DNA of 45,440 nt, taken from FCB group bacterium. GTDB taxonomy: Bacteria; Fidelibacterota; Marinisomatia; Marinisomatales; JAADGP01. The notes below the pieces were generated by a model. That model saw only the letters and a list, made by a program, of their open reading frames with translations, was not told the DNA's origin and made no database searches. How positions within the stretch are numbered: position 1 is the stretch's first letter; each line of letters starts with the position of its first letter. A program made the position numbers and the translations under genes. The stretch spans positions 1-45,440 of the forward strand of contig JAADGP010000064.1 of assembly GCA_013152315.1 (NCBI GenBank), read 5' to 3'. This document shows positions 4,243 to 39,966 of the stretch, in pieces.

Positions 4243-6840
4243 TTATAAACCATGTTCTCTTTTCATCTCATCCAATGCCTGAAGGGCCTGCATGGGGGTC
4301 ATGTTTTCGACATCCAGATTTTTTAATGCGGCTTTCAACTTACTCTCCTGTTGCTCGAAAATCGATAATTGATTGGACGTCTCAGGCAAGGGTTTGGTTC
4401 CCATTGAATCCTGGTTTTGGTCCAGATGATAGTTCAGGATTTCCGTTGCGCGATGTAATACCGTGTTGGGCAACCCCGCCATCCGGGCCACATGGATGCC
4501 ATAGCTTTTATCTCCGGCGCCGGGGAGTATTTTTCGCAGAAACACAATTTTATCACCGAATTCCCTGACCGCCGCGTGATGGTTTTCCAGTCGCTCCAGC
4601 GTGTTCTCCAACTCAGTCAATTCATGATAATGGGTTGCGAAGAGAGTGCGCGCGGCCACGTTGGGAGTGTTGTGAAGATATTCCGTAATCGACCATGCCA
4701 GGGCCAGGCCGTCATAGGTTGCTGTACCGCGTCCTATTTCATCTAATAGAATAAGGCTGCGGGAAGTGGCGTTGTTTAAAATATTCGCCGCCTCATTCAT
4801 CTCCACGAGAAAAGTACTTTCACCGCCCGCCAGGTTATCGCTGGCTCCCACCCGCGTAAACAACTTGTCGACAATACCCACGGTGGCCTTACGGGCCGGC
4901 ACAAACGAACCGATCTGGGCCATCAAAACCAATAATCCCACCTGGCGCAGGTACGTCGATTTCCCCGCCATATTAGGTCCCGTAATCAAATGAATCTGAC
5001 TTGTCCGGGTGTCCATCTTCAAATCGTTCGGAATAAATCGTTCCGTCGGCGGTAACAATTTCTCCACCACCGGATGACGGCCGCCTTCAATGACCAGGAC
5101 AGGCTCCTGCACCAATCGGGGCCGAACATAGTGGTTGTTCAGAGCCACCAGGGCAAGGGCAGACAACAGATCAAGACGGTTAAAAACGCGGGCATTCATC
5201 TGGATTATATCGGCGGATTGCAGTATCGTTCGGCATAATTCATCAAATATTCGTATTTCTATCTCTTCGATCCGGGATTCGGCGGATAGTATTTTTTCCT
5301 CGTACTTCTTTAACTCCGGCGTAATGTACCGCTCGGAATTCACTAACGTTTGTTTACGGATATATTCTTCAGGGACTTTTTCCTGGTGGGTCTTGGTCAC
5401 TTCAATATAATAACCAAAAACTTTATTGTAACCGATCTTAAGCGACGGAATACCGGTTCTTGTTCGTTCCGTGTTCTGCAATTCGGCAATCCATTGCTTG
5501 CCGCCAAAAGCCAATTGCCGCAATTCATCCAACTCTTCGTCAATGCCATCGGCGATGATCTGACCCGGTTTCATCTGTGCCGGGGCATCGGGCCGCACGA
5601 TCTTCAGAATCAGGTCCACAATATCGGAGGTGTCGGAGAACCGCTCCGCCAATCGAATAAGCGCCTGGTTGTTGCTATTCCTGAGCAACCGGCAAATTTC
5701 GGGGATTTTACCGAGGCTGTTGCCCAGGGCCAGCACATCCCGGGGGGAAGCTTTGTACTTGTTAATTTTTCCAATGACACGCTCGATATCAATGATTTGC
5801 TTCAGTTCTTCGCGAATCGTATTCAGCAGCCGCTTTGATTTCACAAATCCTTCAACCACGTCCAGGCGTCCCTGCAACCGGGGGATATCCAAGAGCGGTT
5901 GATACAGCCAATGTTTTAATAATCGGCCGCCCCCGGCCGTGATCGTGGTATCCAATACGTCGATCAGGGTCCCGTGCGTGCCCTGCGTCGCCAGCGATTT
6001 GAATACTTCCAGATTTTTAACCGTAAATCCGTCCAACCCCATGATTCCTTCATCCAACACCGGTTGAACACGGGTTACGTGTTCCAGCGAACTATTGAGG
6101 GTATTACGGATGTGGTAAAAGACTACTCCCCCGGCGGTAATCCCCAGCGGATAATTTTCACAACCGAAACCCTTTAACGTGGTGGTGCGAAAATGTTCGG
6201 TTAACGTGCGGTAACTTTGATCGAAGGTAAAAAGCCAGTCCTCCACGGTTGTGACAAACGGTTTCAGATCACGGTACCAATCGGATGTGGAATACGTAAT
6301 ATTTTCACCCAAGATTACTTCCCGGGGAGAGAACTTGCGCAACGCTTCCAATAGCCGGGTTTGATCACTTTCACCAATGAAAAAATCCCCGGTGGATTGA
6401 TCCAGCACGGCATACCCTACCCGATCGCGGTGAAAGTGCAAACCGACAATAAAATGATTGGATTTCTGACTCAGGGCCTGGTCGGAAGTAATGGTTCCCG
6501 GCGTGACGACTTCAATAACTTCACGTTTGACGATTCCCTTCGCCAATTTGGGATCTTCAACCTGTTCGCAAATTGCGACCCGGTGTCCGGCATTTACCAG
6601 TTTTGGGAGGTAATTATCAAGAGCATGGTGAGGAAATCCCGCCAGGGGGATATCAGCGGCCGCCCCGTTCGCCCGTTTGGTCAGGACAATACCGAGCACC
6701 TTGGCCGTGATTTTGGCGTCTTCCAGAAAGGTTTCGTAAAAGTCGCCCATTCTGAATAATACAATACTGTCCGGATACTGGTTTTTCACCTCCAGGTATT
6801 GTTTCATCAACGGTGTGCCTGCTGGTATCGACTTTGACAT
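4243..6840 (-). CDS. mutS: DNA mismatch repair ATPase MutS
   Basis: About 865 residues. The N-terminal mismatch-binding domain contains PLMKQYLEVKNQYPDSIVLF followed by the Phe-X-Glu element in MGDFYETF. Connector, lever and clamp domains follow. The C-terminal ATPase has Walker A GPNMAGKSTYLRQVG, Walker B LILLDEIGRGT and the downstream ATHYHELTELE histidine motif. MutS recognises mismatches and recruits MutL. The ATG at 6840 gives MSKSIPAGTP and the normal family length. A TTG at 6876 would add 12 poorly conserved residues. The tail region with MTPMQALQALDEMKREHGL is the usual end of MutS1. mutL is not in the window. The gene lies 134 bases downstream of selB on the same strand. Confidence 0.97.
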   Translation of the reverse strand: MSKSIPAGTPLMKQYLEVKNQYPDSIVLFRMGDFYETFLEDAKITAKVLGIVLTKRANGAAADIPLAGFPHHALDNYLPKLVNAGHRVAICEQVEDPKLAKGIVKREVIEVVTPGTITSDQALSQKSNHFIVGLHFHRDRVGYAVLDQSTGDFFIGESDQTRLLEALRKFSPREVILGENITYSTSDWYRDLKPFVTTVEDWLFTFDQSYRTLTEHFRTTTLKGFGCENYPLGITAGGVVFYHIRNTLNSSLEHVTRVQPVLDEGIMGLDGFTVKNLEVFKSLATQGTHGTLIDVLDTTITAGGGRLLKHWLYQPLLDIPRLQGRLDVVEGFVKSKRLLNTIREELKQIIDIERVIGKINKYKASPRDVLALGNSLGKIPEICRLLRNSNNQALIRLAERFSDTSDIVDLILKIVRPDAPAQMKPGQIIADGIDEELDELRQLAFGGKQWIAELQNTERTRTGIPSLKIGYNKVFGYYIEVTKTHQEKVPEEYIRKQTLVNSERYITPELKKYEEKILSAESRIEEIEIRIFDELCRTILQSADIIQMNARVFNRLDLLSALALVALNNHYVRPRLVQEPVLVIEGGRHPVVEKLLPPTERFIPNDLKMDTRTSQIHLITGPNMAGKSTYLRQVGLLVLMAQIGSFVPARKATVGIVDKLFTRVGASDNLAGGESTFLVEMNEAANILNNATSRSLILLDEIGRGTATYDGLALAWSITEYLHNTPNVAARTLFATHYHELTELENTLERLENHHAAVREFGDKIVFLRKILPGAGDKSYGIHVARMAGLPNTVLHRATEILNYHLDQNQDSMGTKPLPETSNQLSIFEQQESKLKAALKNLDVENMTPMQALQALDEMKREHGL

Positions 6841-6974: not shown

Positions 6975-8879
6975 TTAATCGGTAATCTCAATACCCGAAT
7001 CCAGTTTCTCGCCCCGGATCCGCTCATTTCCTTCACGTTCGGTAAATCCGCGGGCATCCAAATATTCCAGTAAGGGGATGGCCGTCTTGCGCGTCAAGGA
7101 AGTAATGTCCTTAAAATCCGGTACCGTCAATTTTGAATGACCATCAAAAAACCGTCTTATTTCCGCGATCAATTCGTCAAAACGCCGGCAATCCAACCAT
7201 AATTCTCTTTGAATTTCCATTACCCGCCCCTGATTCTTTAACACATGCAGCAATTCCACGACACGCTGTTCATCCAAGTTCGTCGCCGAGGCGATCTCGG
7301 TCACTTTCAGGGACATAAACCGGGAACCATACAACAGGTCGGAAATGGCATCCGCTTTTCTCTGATCTTCACCGGTAAGCGCTATTTGATGACCGGCCAA
7401 CGCGTATCCGGCATCTTTACCAACTATTATCCCCTTCGACACCATGTTGTCCAGGACCCAATCACCCCATCGGTCGGACAGACCGAATTCCTGTTTTATC
7501 ACCTCACCACTGACCGACACGCGGTAAGGATTATCCCGGTGGAAATCATTCAGAAAACCTTCAATCGCCCCGGTCAGCCACTCCAGATCTTCGGGTTTGA
7601 ATACCAGGTCGTTTTCCGGAACGACCGATAATCCGTTGGTTTCTATCAAGGAACGAATCCACGCTTCCGGGTGATGAAACACCCGCGACCATTCCGCCAC
7701 CGTCCGGGGATGATCGCGAAAGCGTTCGATATATTGATTGAACCTCTCGTTAATCGGTGTTTTCAGCTTGGAAGCCCAATCCTTTATTGTTTTCCATTTC
7801 CCCACCGGTTGCGGATCCAGGATTTGACCGCCGCCAATTGTTTCCATGGGCGAATAGGAACGGAGGACGAAACGATCATCCATGGCGGCCACCATAGGTT
7901 TTTCCAGATGAATGATAATGTTCCCTGACTGCCCGCCCTTCAGTTCACCGCTGACAGTTTGTATTCGTCCCAACACCTGTGCTGTTCCTATGTGAACCCG
8001 GATTCGTTGCTTGGTTTTGAGTCGCCACCGCGTATGCGAAACCAGGGTCACCCGGGCAATCAAATGGCGTGTCGATTCCAGCCAACCGGGTGTTACCAAT
8101 TCGGACCCCCGCCAGAGTTGTTGTTTATCAACTCCCGCCAGATTAACCGCCGCCCGGTCGCCCTTAACCACGGCGGGAACGTTTTTCCCGTGGCTCTGGA
8201 GACCACGAACTTTTCCCTTAATACCCACCGGCAGACAAACCAATTCTTCCCCAACAGACAATTGTCCCGCGATGACGGTTCCGGTCACAACGGTACCAAA
8301 ACCGGTTTTGATGAATACACGATCTATGGGAAGCCGGAAGAACCCGCGGTCATCTTCCAGTTGAACCGCGGCCGCCTGTTCCAGTAACGCCGCCCTTAAT
8401 TCTGCTATCCCGGTTTCCGGTTTTACCGAAGTCCGTATGATCGGCGCGGATTCCAGAAACGTGCCCTTCACGGTCTCGCGGATTTCTTCTTCCACCATGT
8501 CAATCCACTCCTCATCATCCACCAGGTCGACTTTTGTGAGGGCGATTACACCCCTTGGTATTTGCAGTAAGGAAATGATCTGGAGATGTTCCCGCGTTTG
8601 GGGCATGATGCCATCATCGGCGGCAACAACCAACAGGGCGATATGAATGGTCGACACCCCCGCCACCATGTTGCGTATGAATTTTTCATGACCGGGGACG
8701 TCAATGATCGTAATGTTGTCATCCAAAAAAGCAAACCCCAGATCAATGGTCATGCCCCGGGCTTTTTCTTCCTCCAGCCGATCGGTATCGGTACCGGTAA
8801 GTGCTTTAACCAGGGCCGTTTTACCATGATCAATATGACCGGCTGTTCCAATGACTATCTGGGAAGGACGGTAATTCAC
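6975..8879 (-). CDS. selB: Selenocysteine-specific elongation factor SelB
   Basis: A 634-residue GTPase that delivers selenocysteyl-tRNA to UGA codons marked by a SECIS hairpin. It starts with GTG at 8879. The G1 motif is [13 protein letters not shown] (about residues 12-24), with [15 protein letters not shown] (switch I), [15 protein letters not shown] (G3) and ALTKVDLVD (G4). After the EF-Tu-like domains 2 and 3 come winged-helix repeats, which in the family bind the mRNA SECIS. Sec-specific SelB is distinguished from EF-Tu by this C-terminal extension of about 250 residues. It is the downstream partner of selA across a 411-base spacer. No selenoprotein gene was recognised nearby. Confidence 0.96.
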
Positions 8880-36909: not shown

Positions 36910-37347
36910 ATGAACGCCTCCGGCATTGATCAGGGCGTTGTTACCAAGGTGGAAGGGCACCTGGCCTACGTGGAACTCGAATCAGGGGATGCCTGCGAAT
37001 CCTGTGGCGCTCGAAATTTGTGTGTCCCTTTAAGCGGCGGTACCCGTTCGATTGTGGCCGCCAATCCGGAAAACGCCCGCGTGGGCGATCGGGTAACCGT
37101 TGAAGAACAAGGCCAACCGGTTTTAACCCTGTCAGCTTTGCAATACGGACTGCCCCTGCTGGGCTTCTTTATCGGAATATTGTTTGTGTACGGAGGCCTT
37201 ATTCGGATCCCGTTTCTAGCACCGGAATTGGGCATGTTTCTGTCCGGTTTGATTGGTCTGGGCGGGGGCGGCGTACTGGCCTGGTGGGGAATAAAACGAT
37301 TATCCCGTCGACCGGGACGGTTTTTTACGGTGCGGTTGCTGCGTTGA
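36910..37347 (+). CDS. RseC/SoxR-reducing system family protein
   Basis: A 145-residue protein with the opening QGVVTKVEGHLAYVELE and the Cys pattern DACESCGARNLCVPL, which resembles the RseC/MucC Cys motif. Two membrane helices follow, QYGLPLLGFFIGILFVYGG and MFLSGLIGLGGGGVLAWW. RseC family members are encoded with rnf genes in several bacteria and are implicated in SoxR reduction or Rnf assembly. It is the last gene of the operon, 6 bases after rnfB. The family match is good, but its exact role here is inference. Confidence 0.88.
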   Translation: MNASGIDQGVVTKVEGHLAYVELESGDACESCGARNLCVPLSGGTRSIVAANPENARVGDRVTVEEQGQPVLTLSALQYGLPLLGFFIGILFVYGGLIRIPFLAPELGMFLSGLIGLGGGGVLAWWGIKRLSRRPGRFFTVRLLR

Positions 37348-37423
37348 ATCGGAGGGAATTCCTACAACGTATATGATGTACCCCACTGCTGGCCGGTTAT
37401 CCATAGCACTCTGAACACTGATC

Positions 37424-37447
37424 CTGCAGGGTCTCCCGACCCTGCAG
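37424..37447. repeat. Perfect inverted repeat downstream of the rnf operon
   Basis: Ten-base arms CTGCAGGGTC and GACCCTGCAG enclose TCCC. Outer flanks ACACTG and CAGTGT can extend it with a 3-nt bulge. It lies 77 bases after the RseC-like stop. There is no T run after it on the plus strand, so it is not a standard rho-independent terminator. Confidence 0.65.
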
Positions 37448-37458
37448 TGTGGATAGAA

Positions 37459-37545
37459 ATCCCGAGCACATTCGGCGTGTTTTTGTGATATTTTCCACAT
37501 TATTCGTCCGAATAATGTGATTATCTCCACAAATTACGCCCCAAT
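37459..37545. repeat. Flanking direct repeat, copy R1 (87 nt), downstream of the ATPase gene
   Basis: About 89% identical by eye to the 38936-39022 copy, with the same length and orientation. It contains a perfect palindrome at 37496-37519 (CACATTATTCG, TC, CGAATAATGTG). It is built from three diverged units starting CACATTCGG (37467), CACATTATTCG (37496) and CACAAATTACG (37528). The third unit continues past the shared 87 bases to about 37558. Confidence 0.85.
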
Positions 37546-37587
37546 AATGAGATTTTAACCCAACTTCACTAAATGATTCAGACAGAT

Positions 37588-38907
37588 TTATTTCATTTGT
37601 GAGGATAATTTGGGAAATAAGTGAATTGCGTACAACGGATAATTCACTACCTTACCGTCTTTCTTCAAATTGAGTAATGTTGTACGTGATAAAACAGGGG
37701 GGCTGAATTGCCGATCATAGGACAGGAGACTTTTGCTCCTAGGATTAATACCGGCCTTTACTTCCAGCGGATAGATCCGTGTTTTAAACTCGCAAAGAAA
37801 ATCCAATTCCGCTTTTTTACCGGTGCTGGTCCAATAATATAAAGGAATTCCGGTTTCCGCTTTCAATTGCTGAGCAACATAATTTTCCACCCATGCCCCT
37901 TTGAATTCCTGAAATAAGTCGTCTCCCTTCAGTAAAATCCCGGAATGTAAATTCGCCATGGCACCTAATATTCCAACGTCCAACATAAAAACTTTGAAAC
38001 TTTGAGGATTTGCGTATCCTTTCAGGGGAATTTTCGGATTGGAAACCTGGAATGAGCGGTAAATCAAACCGGCATCCTCCAACCATTGAATAGCCGATTC
38101 ATATTCCCTGGCACGTGCACTTTTCCGAACAGCACTGAAAACGAATTTTTTATTTTCTTTCGCCAACTGCGCCGGGATGGAATTCCAAATCAAATTTATT
38201 TTCGGTATGGAAGCAGTAATTCCATGTTTGGCAAAATCCAATAAGTATGACTCGATGATATCGCGTTGTGTATTTCTGACCAGGGAATAATCACCGGTAT
38301 CGATGTAATTTTTCACAACTTCCGGCATACCACCGATGAAAAAATACAAACGCAACAGCTCTTTCAATTCATCGTGAAAAGGTTTCGGATAGGGAGAATA
38401 TTCCGTCGTATGCACAATCAGGTTACGTAATTGGGGTTTACCGACTGCTTCCAAAAACTCTAGGATAGTTAGCGGATACATAGTAAGGAAATTGACTTTC
38501 CCCACCGGAAAAGATTTTGGTCTGGAAAGAAAAAGCCCGATAAGTGAACCAGCCGCCGCAAGATGGTATTCCGGCGCATTTTCACAAAAATATTTTAAGG
38601 AATTAAGCGCATGGCTGGAATTTTGGATTTCATCAAAGATGAGCAATGTGGTTCCCGGTTTAATATTTTCTCCGGTGTAAAGAGACAAATTGGTAAGTAT
38701 TTTCTCCGGGGCCAGCCGCCCTTGGAAAAAATCATCCAAAGCCGGGTCTTCCTCGAAATTGATGTAAACAATATTTTCATATTCGTGTTTTCCGAATTGT
38801 TTAAGAATATAGGTTTTTCCAACTTGCCGGGCACCACGCAAAATTAATGGTTTGCGTTGCTTTGAGGATTTCCATTGCAATAATTTTTGATAAATATCGC
38901 GTTTCAT
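37588..38907 (-). CDS. AAA ATPase with DUF4143 and PD-(D/E)XK-like C-terminus
   Basis: A 439-residue protein of the large, little-understood AAA/DUF4143 family. Walker A is GARQVGKT (residues 25-32), Walker B is LLIFDEIQNS (about 88-97), and AAAGSLIGLFLSRP is sensor-like. Then comes the DUF4143 region (VVKNYIDTGDYSLVRNTQRD onwards). The last domain has AELDF (Asp about 369) and LEVKAG (Glu about 382, Lys about 384), the spacing of a PD-(D/E)XK nuclease-like fold. These proteins are multicopy in many Bacteroidetes and archaeal genomes and have no clear role. The gene is alone, opposite in strand to rnf, and flanked by 87-nt direct repeats. It looks more AT-rich than its neighbours. Confidence 0.92.
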   Translation of the reverse strand: MKRDIYQKLLQWKSSKQRKPLILRGARQVGKTYILKQFGKHEYENIVYINFEEDPALDDFFQGRLAPEKILTNLSLYTGENIKPGTTLLIFDEIQNSSHALNSLKYFCENAPEYHLAAAGSLIGLFLSRPKSFPVGKVNFLTMYPLTILEFLEAVGKPQLRNLIVHTTEYSPYPKPFHDELKELLRLYFFIGGMPEVVKNYIDTGDYSLVRNTQRDIIESYLLDFAKHGITASIPKINLIWNSIPAQLAKENKKFVFSAVRKSARAREYESAIQWLEDAGLIYRSFQVSNPKIPLKGYANPQSFKVFMLDVGILGAMANLHSGILLKGDDLFQEFKGAWVENYVAQQLKAETGIPLYYWTSTGKKAELDFLCEFKTRIYPLEVKAGINPRSKSLLSYDRQFSPPVLSRTTLLNLKKDGKVVNYPLYAIHLFPKLSSQMK

Positions 38908-38935
38908 AAAGAAAATTTAACAAGTGGCATTAAAG

Positions 38936-39022
38936 ATTCCGAGCACATTCGGCGTATTTTTGTGATTATTCCCACATTTTTCGTCCGAATAATGTGATTA
39001 TCTCCACAAAATGCGTCCCAAT
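38936..39022. repeat. Flanking direct repeat, copy R2 (87 nt), upstream of the ATPase gene
   Basis: The partner of R1, 29 bases before the ATPase start and in the same orientation. Its palindrome (38973-38996) differs from that of R1 by one base, which breaks perfection. The third unit stops at CCCAAT and is followed by unrelated sequence. That may mark a boundary. Confidence 0.85.
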
Positions 39023-39075: not shown

Positions 39076-39966
39076 TCAGGTCGGGGTTGACCTACGGTTA
39101 ATCAGGTAGACCGCGACAATCGCCAGAAGGCCCCCCAACAGGGTCGGCGGGGATAATTTTTCGTCCAAAAATATTCGCGCGAAAAAGAGCGCGCTGACCG
39201 GTACCGCAAAAATGAAGGCGCTGGCCTTCTCGGATCCAAGTTTTTTGGTGGCCAGAAAATAGATGGTGGTACCGAAAGCCATCGCGCCGGCGGACACGGA
39301 AAATAAATTCAACCAGAAAATCCAGTTTAAGGAAAACACTTCGAGGATCCCGGAATGGATAGCAAAGGGCAAGGCTAAAATTGCGGCCACCCAATAGGTG
39401 ATCAAACTGAAATACAGAGTACCAATGTGTCCCCGGGAGGATTCGGCAATGATCGTCAAAATCGCCCACGAAAGGGCGCACAACAGAAAAAAGACATTTC
39501 CACTGCGGAATAATTCGCTTCCGTCCATATGCCAGATGCGCATAATAATCAATCCCCCGGTTACGCCGAGGATGAGCCCCAAAATATCCTTTTTGCGTAT
39601 CGCTCTTCGCCAAACGAAGGCTGCCAGAAAGAAGGTGAGGATAGGGTTGAGGGTAGTGACCAACACCCCGCCGGCCCCGGCCAGGCCACGCCGGGTTCCC
39701 AGGAAGAAGAATATATTATAGGTAGCTATCAACAAACCGCCGAACAGGGCGGCGATGAAACCTTTGCGATTAATGGAACCCCGGGAACGAGTACCAAACA
39801 CAACCGGAGTAAAAAACAGCCCGGTCAACGTGAAACGCCAGAAAATCAGATTGGGAACGGAAGTATAACCGGCAAGGATTTTACCGTTACTCCAGGAAAG
39901 TCCCCAGGTGAGCATGGCGGAAACCAGGAGCAGGTACAGGACCAGTCGGGATGTGTTTTGCTGCAT
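39076..39966 (-). CDS. EamA/DMT-superfamily transporter
   Basis: A 296-residue inner-membrane protein with about 10 helices and two EamA repeats. Repeat one starts LLLVSAMLTWGLSWSNGKIL and reaches FFLGTRRGLAGAGGVLVTTL, repeat two runs through FLLCALSWAILTIIAES to FAVPVSALFFARIFLDEKLS. Such proteins export amino acids, nucleotides or other small molecules; the substrate here is unknown. No operon partner is visible: the gene is followed by a 15-nt inverted repeat (39051-39065) and the ATPase cassette. Confidence 0.9.
   Translation of the reverse strand: MQQNTSRLVLYLLLVSAMLTWGLSWSNGKILAGYTSVPNLIFWRFTLTGLFFTPVVFGTRSRGSINRKGFIAALFGGLLIATYNIFFFLGTRRGLAGAGGVLVTTLNPILTFFLAAFVWRRAIRKKDILGLILGVTGGLIIMRIWHMDGSELFRSGNVFFLLCALSWAILTIIAESSRGHIGTLYFSLITYWVAAILALPFAIHSGILEVFSLNWIFWLNLFSVSAGAMAFGTTIYFLATKKLGSEKASAFIFAVPVSALFFARIFLDEKLSPPTLLGGLLAIVAVYLINRRSTPT

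Follow-up and report, generated by a model that had tools for sequence, protein, structure and literature searches.

The window, the whole 45,440-nucleotide stretch of contig JAADGP010000064.1 analyzed here, comes from a bacterium of the FCB group and contains, at 37588-38907 on the minus strand, a gene for a 439-aa AAA_14/DUF4143 ATPase-nuclease assigned with Pfam, PADLOC and AlphaFold2. Two repeats frame this gene, R1 (37459-37545) past its stop codon and R2 (38936-39022) upstream of its start codon, both annotated on the minus strand. The left neighbor of R1 is the gene that follows rnf (36910-37347, plus strand), which we take to be RseC-like. It is convergent with a transporter gene on the right (39076-39966, minus strand), presumably of the EamA type, whose downstream region holds R2. 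The GC content of the ATPase-nuclease gene is 40%, against about 52% for its neighbors.

Analysis of the encoded protein revealed an AAA_14 domain (PF13173, E = 2e-27) and a DUF4143 domain (PF13635, E = 4e-33), and the PADLOC model PDLC04786 matched residues 1-433 of 439 (E = 7e-172). By this model match, and as a fusion of an ATPase with a PD-(D/E)XK-superfamily domain (PMC12988326), the gene is the PADLOC phage-defence candidate PDC-S01. Its distribution is patchy. PDC-S01 has been ranked the fourth most common defence across prokaryotes, and most such candidates still await experimental validation (PMC12988326). In the literature searched, we found no experiments on PDC-S01 and no description of an upstream 32-nt dyad array or a flanking duplication for it, and DUF4143 was met solely in connection with an unrelated subject.

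The Walker A (G25-T32) and Walker B (D92-E93) motifs and the nuclease-like residues D369, E382 and K384 are invariant among 25 homologous sequences, as are N252, K254, F255, R265 and E270, which lie in a basic segment between the ATPase and nuclease parts. A search by sequence returned no solved structure for the protein. The solved folds closest to its AlphaFold2 model (mean pLDDT 89.9) are those of SSO1545, an archaeal ATPase, and of Orc1/Cdc6 initiators in complex with origin DNA (2fna, 2v1u and 2qby, TM 0.28-0.44), which supports an AAA+ plus winged-helix layout. The protein would thus have an Orc1/Cdc6-like build, with the AAA+ part followed by a winged-helix segment, and differs from both relatives in its extra nuclease domain and in the low overall similarity.

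Self-comparison of the window gave 90% identity between R1 and R2 over 87 nt (E ~1e-24), bearing out the coordinates and the nine to ten differences that an earlier note had given by eye. The match extends to 37454-37545 and 38931-39022, with 88% identity over 92 nt. Both copies have the same orientation and are 1477 nt apart from start to start; R1 lies 42 nt past the stop codon, and R2 ends 28 nt (38908-38935) before the start codon. Each copy is built internally as a tandem of about 32 nt and forms a large imperfect palindrome, with a DNA fold z of -4.9 for R1 and -2.9 for R2. R2 has two dyad units with a 32-nt pitch, CACATTATTC..GAATAATGTG, and includes the dyad CACATTTTTCGTCCGAATAATGTG (38973-38996), which has one arm mismatch, and two TGTG-N8-CACA half-site pairs (38961-38976 and 38993-39008) located 32 nt apart. 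R1 harbors a perfect dyad, CACATTATTCGTCCGAATAATGTG (37496-37519), and likewise two TGTG-N8-CACA half-site pairs (37484-37499 and 37516-37531) with the same 32-nt spacing. No promoter of the sigma-70 type could be recognized within R2 or next to it. A hairpin repeat, CACTGATCCTGCAGGGTCTCCCGACCCTGCAGTG (37414-37459), adjoins R1 on the left and has related copies at several places in the genome of a sister species. In the draft genome to which the window belongs (2,084,873 bases, 163 contigs), R1 and R2 are the sole copies of the repeat, which has no copy apart from the gene, so the earlier note's coupling of repeat and gene stands.

Comparison with homologues revealed dyads upstream of these genes as well. 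Those of the type CAC[AG]TT.TTC....GAA.AA.GTG are located just 5' of the start codon in the closest homologues, whose hosts belong to Nitrospinota, Desulfobacterota, Acidobacteria, Chlamydiae and Gammaproteobacteria, mostly as two to three dyads with a pitch of 32-33 nt, and related dyads precede the start codon of homologues that are 52-65% identical and lie in unrelated contexts. The upstream dyads read CCACATTATTC..AAATGTGATTAT at locus L006 and CACGTTTTTC..GAAAAACGTG, at 33 nt, at L010, L013 and L019, while L016 and L017 have two dyads at 32 nt, a pattern found in these two genomes solely at the gene. Within the phylum, the 65%-identical homologues of genomes G200 and G087 lie in other contexts and display a window-like array upstream (82% over 44 nt, E = 4e-8, and 66% over 80 nt, E = 2e-7); in the loci examined, neither was seen to have a further copy downstream.

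A tandem repeat with a period of 31-34 nt was counted upstream of 69 of 173 PDC-S01/DUF4143 genes, downstream of 7 of 171 and in 9 of 518 control upstream regions, the criterion being a self-match of at least 18/26 at lag 31-34, with thresholds set during the analysis on the same loci as counted. For the 173 upstream regions, the lag spectrum has its maxima at 32 and 33, followed by overtones at 64-66, and a recurrent half-site, AAAAATGTG, could be recognized. A frequency of 40% against 2% in controls, together with the fixed lag, leaves little room for chance. After clustering at 60% identity, 23 of 53 long-form cluster representatives retained a period of 31-34 or 63-67 nt; the effect was observed in both protein size classes, more strongly in that of 405-470 aa. 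At the thresholds used, roughly half of the genes had no clear 32-nt array. The arrays comprise about 2.5 units at a median of 28 nt from the start codon, and they diverge together with the protein: similar arrays (match of at least 17/22) were found in 1% of the gene pairs whose proteins are less than 30% identical and in 74% of those at 65-90%, while for downstream regions the share of similar pairs stayed at about 2%. Most array-bearing homologues carry the upstream array alone, and a downstream copy is not general. Since the upstream dyads travel with the homologues, R2 is the family element and R1 an extra copy past the stop codon. Repeated dyads just upstream of the gene, conserved and diverging with the protein, are by sequence comparison features expected of an autoregulatory operator.

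Array-bearing genes were also identified in named isolates, on Fusobacterium animalis pSB029A, on Bacteroides cellulosilyticus pMMCAT and on a Glaesserella parasuis plasmid, where the gene adjoins a type III restriction system; no viral contig with the exact core pattern was found. Other subfamilies have motifs of their own. One displays a 23-nt-pitch motif, ATTAGCCGA, before the gene (upstream of L186, L188 and L189, and at L196 and L314-L317), and a similar motif remains at a gene-less site in genome G244. In another, represented in three genomes by L205, L207 and L209, the palindrome CCTTGATAATT..AATTATCAAGG immediately precedes the start codon and occurs a second time past the stop, as in the window. 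The half-sites of R1 and R2 might suggest CRP/FNR-like sites (TGTGA-N6-CCACA) serving the neighbors, a reading that we rejected in view of the convergent orientation of these neighbors and because it is the ATPase gene that the sites accompany. Short palindromes repeated ahead of the start codon are also known from another defence locus, that of RptR, a small separate repressor with three 9-bp repeats at an autoregulated phage-defence promoter (PMC12255303). In the window, by contrast, the array belongs to the effector gene, and the family's pitch is 32-33 nt.

A sister species of the same genus (G001, 99% complete) has one copy of the repeat, 76-79% identical, located 37-47 nt past the stop codon of the orthologous transporter gene (85% nucleotide identity), and no PDC-S01 was found in its genome at E<=1e-60. 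The right flank and the repeat are thus conserved and the gene is absent, an empty-site-like allele in keeping with the earlier note, while the left flank spans only about 110 nt to the contig start and resembles a dispersed repeat. Given this short flank, and with no rnf genes found in the G001 genome apart from an 84-nt end piece, there is room for other deletions. That piece (L096 1-84, contig C99) matches rnfB at a contig end, and the rnf operon was possibly lost. Because the array travels with the gene elsewhere, the gene-less array in G001 most plausibly marks the place where a gene has been lost. On its right, this copy continues like the inner flank of R1 (37546-37575, over its first 13 nt or so) and unlike the outer flank of R2, so R1 would be the older array copy, an indication from a dozen bases that is short and weak. 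Elsewhere in G001, a further DUF4143 gene (L093, contig C81) lies between repeats about 156 nt long (5508-5673 and 7912-8062) that are 95-97% identical to each other and belong to a dispersed family, whose other long copies are 72-85% identical.

Based on these observations, we consider it probable that the repeat is a private cis-recognition array of PDC-S01 and that R1 and R2 allow loss and gain of the gene by recombination. R2 is most likely a self-recognition operator: the encoded protein would bind it at its own promoter and thereby restrain its own expression or activity. The 32-nt pitch corresponds to about three helical turns, which should place successive dyads on one face of the DNA for an oligomer. 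Orc1/Cdc6 initiators and their repeated origin sites offer a likeness, with repeated imperfect dyads as the candidate binding site, and differ in that the window array stands upstream of the gene it belongs to and is confined to that gene. Two direct arrays would permit the gene to be deleted or regained by recombination between them, leaving one array. The state with a gene-less array beside the same transporter is observed in G001, and the recombination route is what we infer from it. Gene and array together would spread horizontally as a one-gene unit. Of the two readings in the earlier note, that of an operator duplicated with the gene fits better, the repeat being the family's own upstream array.

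To what extent such genes are framed by repeats was determined in the phylum, where 245 genomes were searched for DUF4143 and 80 loci were retrieved. A frame of direct repeats (E<1e-6), with one copy on either side no more than 500 nt away, was present around 21 of 84 DUF4143 genes and 1 of 307 control ORFs from the same genomes (p=2e-14), or 16 of 47 versus 1 of 70 after gap matching (p=9e-7). Inverted pairs were rare (3 versus 0 in controls), and the excess outside the phylum was modest (9/86 versus 8/188). Independent clean cases number fewer than 21, since L198 and L201 represent the same event, as do L205, L207 and L209, and since some pairs are dispersed intergenic repeats (L175, L192 and L203) or C-terminal domains common to sorted proteins (L198, L201 and L213). 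The framing repeats differ from locus to locus, with lengths of 35-399 nt and identities of 68-99%. At seven loci, six in the phylum (L187, L198, L201, L212, L213 and L242) plus L006, one repeat of the pair coincides with the 3' end of an intact neighbor gene as far as its stop codon, and the other is an orphan copy on the far side of the ATPase gene; at other loci, the framing repeats are terminators. The duplicated 3' end at L213 separates two DUF4143 genes of different type. In one genus, some species have the gene downstream of TldE and others lack it, different subfamilies occupy this position, and orphan TldE 3' ends were found in G227 and, in a related genus, in G243.

These framing duplications suggest single-gene mobility without a transposase, for which the statistical evidence is good, while the mechanism is what we infer. 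The conserved array of a very common defence candidate is a stronger finding than this mobility. The earlier note's other reading, in which the unit could move or be excised with no transposase of its own, gains indirect support from the single copy without the gene at the G001 transporter and from framed relatives in the phylum far in excess of controls; its excision, a circular form and a recombining enzyme would be suppositions. Several further observations concern the TldE site. Orphan tldE 3' pieces lie at L297 9420-9557, L309 6791-7042 and L317 250-323, adjoining a DUF4143 gene in L297 and LonA in L317. Two different DUF4143 genes stand in tandem behind tldE at L302 1548-4017. This genus has several copies of tldE, and the region behind tldE resembles a hot spot for insertions. 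The LonA-TldE interval of G244 was rejected as a clean empty site, since it contains two terminators and about 500 nt of repeats.

The framing data could also indicate an active insertion, whereby the ATPase-nuclease, or a host pathway triggered by its cutting, inserts array and gene at gene 3' ends or terminators, the target being duplicated or a replacement 3' end being brought along, as in homing or site-specific integration. The phylum-wide excess, both raw and gap-matched, with few inverted pairs, the seven loci with an orphan 3' end, the presence or absence after TldE with its orphan pieces, and the L213 arrangement are all consistent with this account. We nevertheless hold it to be unlikely: the window repeat is the array and not a gene 3' end, no recombinase is present, repeat length and identity vary, unlike fixed target duplications, and the dispersed repeats, the common C-terminal domains and the modest excess outside the phylum likewise speak against it. 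Similarly doubtful is a selfish form of the same idea, in which PDC-S01 would be a single-gene mobile unit whose ATPase-nuclease recognizes its own private 32-nt-pitch array, and array plus gene would enter sites near gene 3' ends or terminators with long duplications, using neither transposase nor integrase. Free-standing homing nucleases and elements that integrate at gene 3' ends are known kinds, which some PDC-S01 relatives resemble in adjoining duplicated gene 3' ends. The window unit differs from them in having no known homing-nuclease or integrase family and in a duplicated stretch that is not a gene 3' end. A transposon or insertion sequence was rejected, since no other gene, and hence no transposase, lies between R1 and R2 and the repeats are direct rather than terminal inverted.

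Alternatively, the array could act as RNA, with two to three hairpins transcribed before the gene that neutralize or regulate the protein like the repeat RNA of type III toxin-antitoxin systems. In these systems (ToxIN, AbiQ), about 2.5 tandem repeats of about 35 nt lie upstream of one protein gene. The unit number of the family's arrays and their position before a single protein gene are alike, and these arrays fold strongly on the gene's strand (mean z about -3). However, the opposite strand folds about equally (z -2.8), and the sense strand was lower in only 41 of 69 cases. Dyad mismatches on the gene's strand favored G-T over A-C (29:11, p=0.006; controls 281:260), a weak hint of an RNA role; the same data were also examined in several other ways, and the count ignores kinship among the genes. 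The arrays had no Rfam match beyond two chance matches, their pitch equals three turns of DNA, and the protein fold resembles DNA-bound initiators. Moreover, the window protein is of the AAA_14/DUF4143 kind and not ToxN-type, and its array is symmetric as DNA. Taken together, these features make an RNA function rather improbable.

Much less probable still is an ordinary dispersed repeat, or a duplicated terminator shared by convergent genes, with the gene lying between the copies by chance. A terminator-like hairpin does open both copies (37462-37475 and 38939-38952), the neighbors are convergent, and other such genes do sit among dispersed repeats, but the presence of the same dyads with the gene in other genomes largely contradicts this explanation. 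A dispersed repeat family was likewise rejected, since the genome has just two copies and the sister species one, and a search of 148 other genomes of the class gave no convincing copy; no PDC-S01 was found near the weak matches in other genomes (E about 0.003-0.1). An integron-like cassette with attC-type recombination sites, suggested by a single gene with imperfect palindromes of about 90 nt, has a negligible probability, since no paired RYYYAAC/GTTRRRY boxes bound R1 and R2, the array of homologues lies upstream of the gene and attC downstream, and other loci are framed by unrelated sequences.

Read as a private cis-recognition array of PDC-S01, the conserved and fast-diverging array of each gene offers binding, reporter and footprint assays a defined piece of DNA to work on, and it suggests self-recognition as a key to how the PDC-S01 protein is silenced or triggered. 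Through the flanking duplications and the arrays that lack a gene, it can be tested whether PDC-S01 serves host defence, is a selfish mobile gene, or both, and its status as one or the other would alter how defence-gene counts are read.
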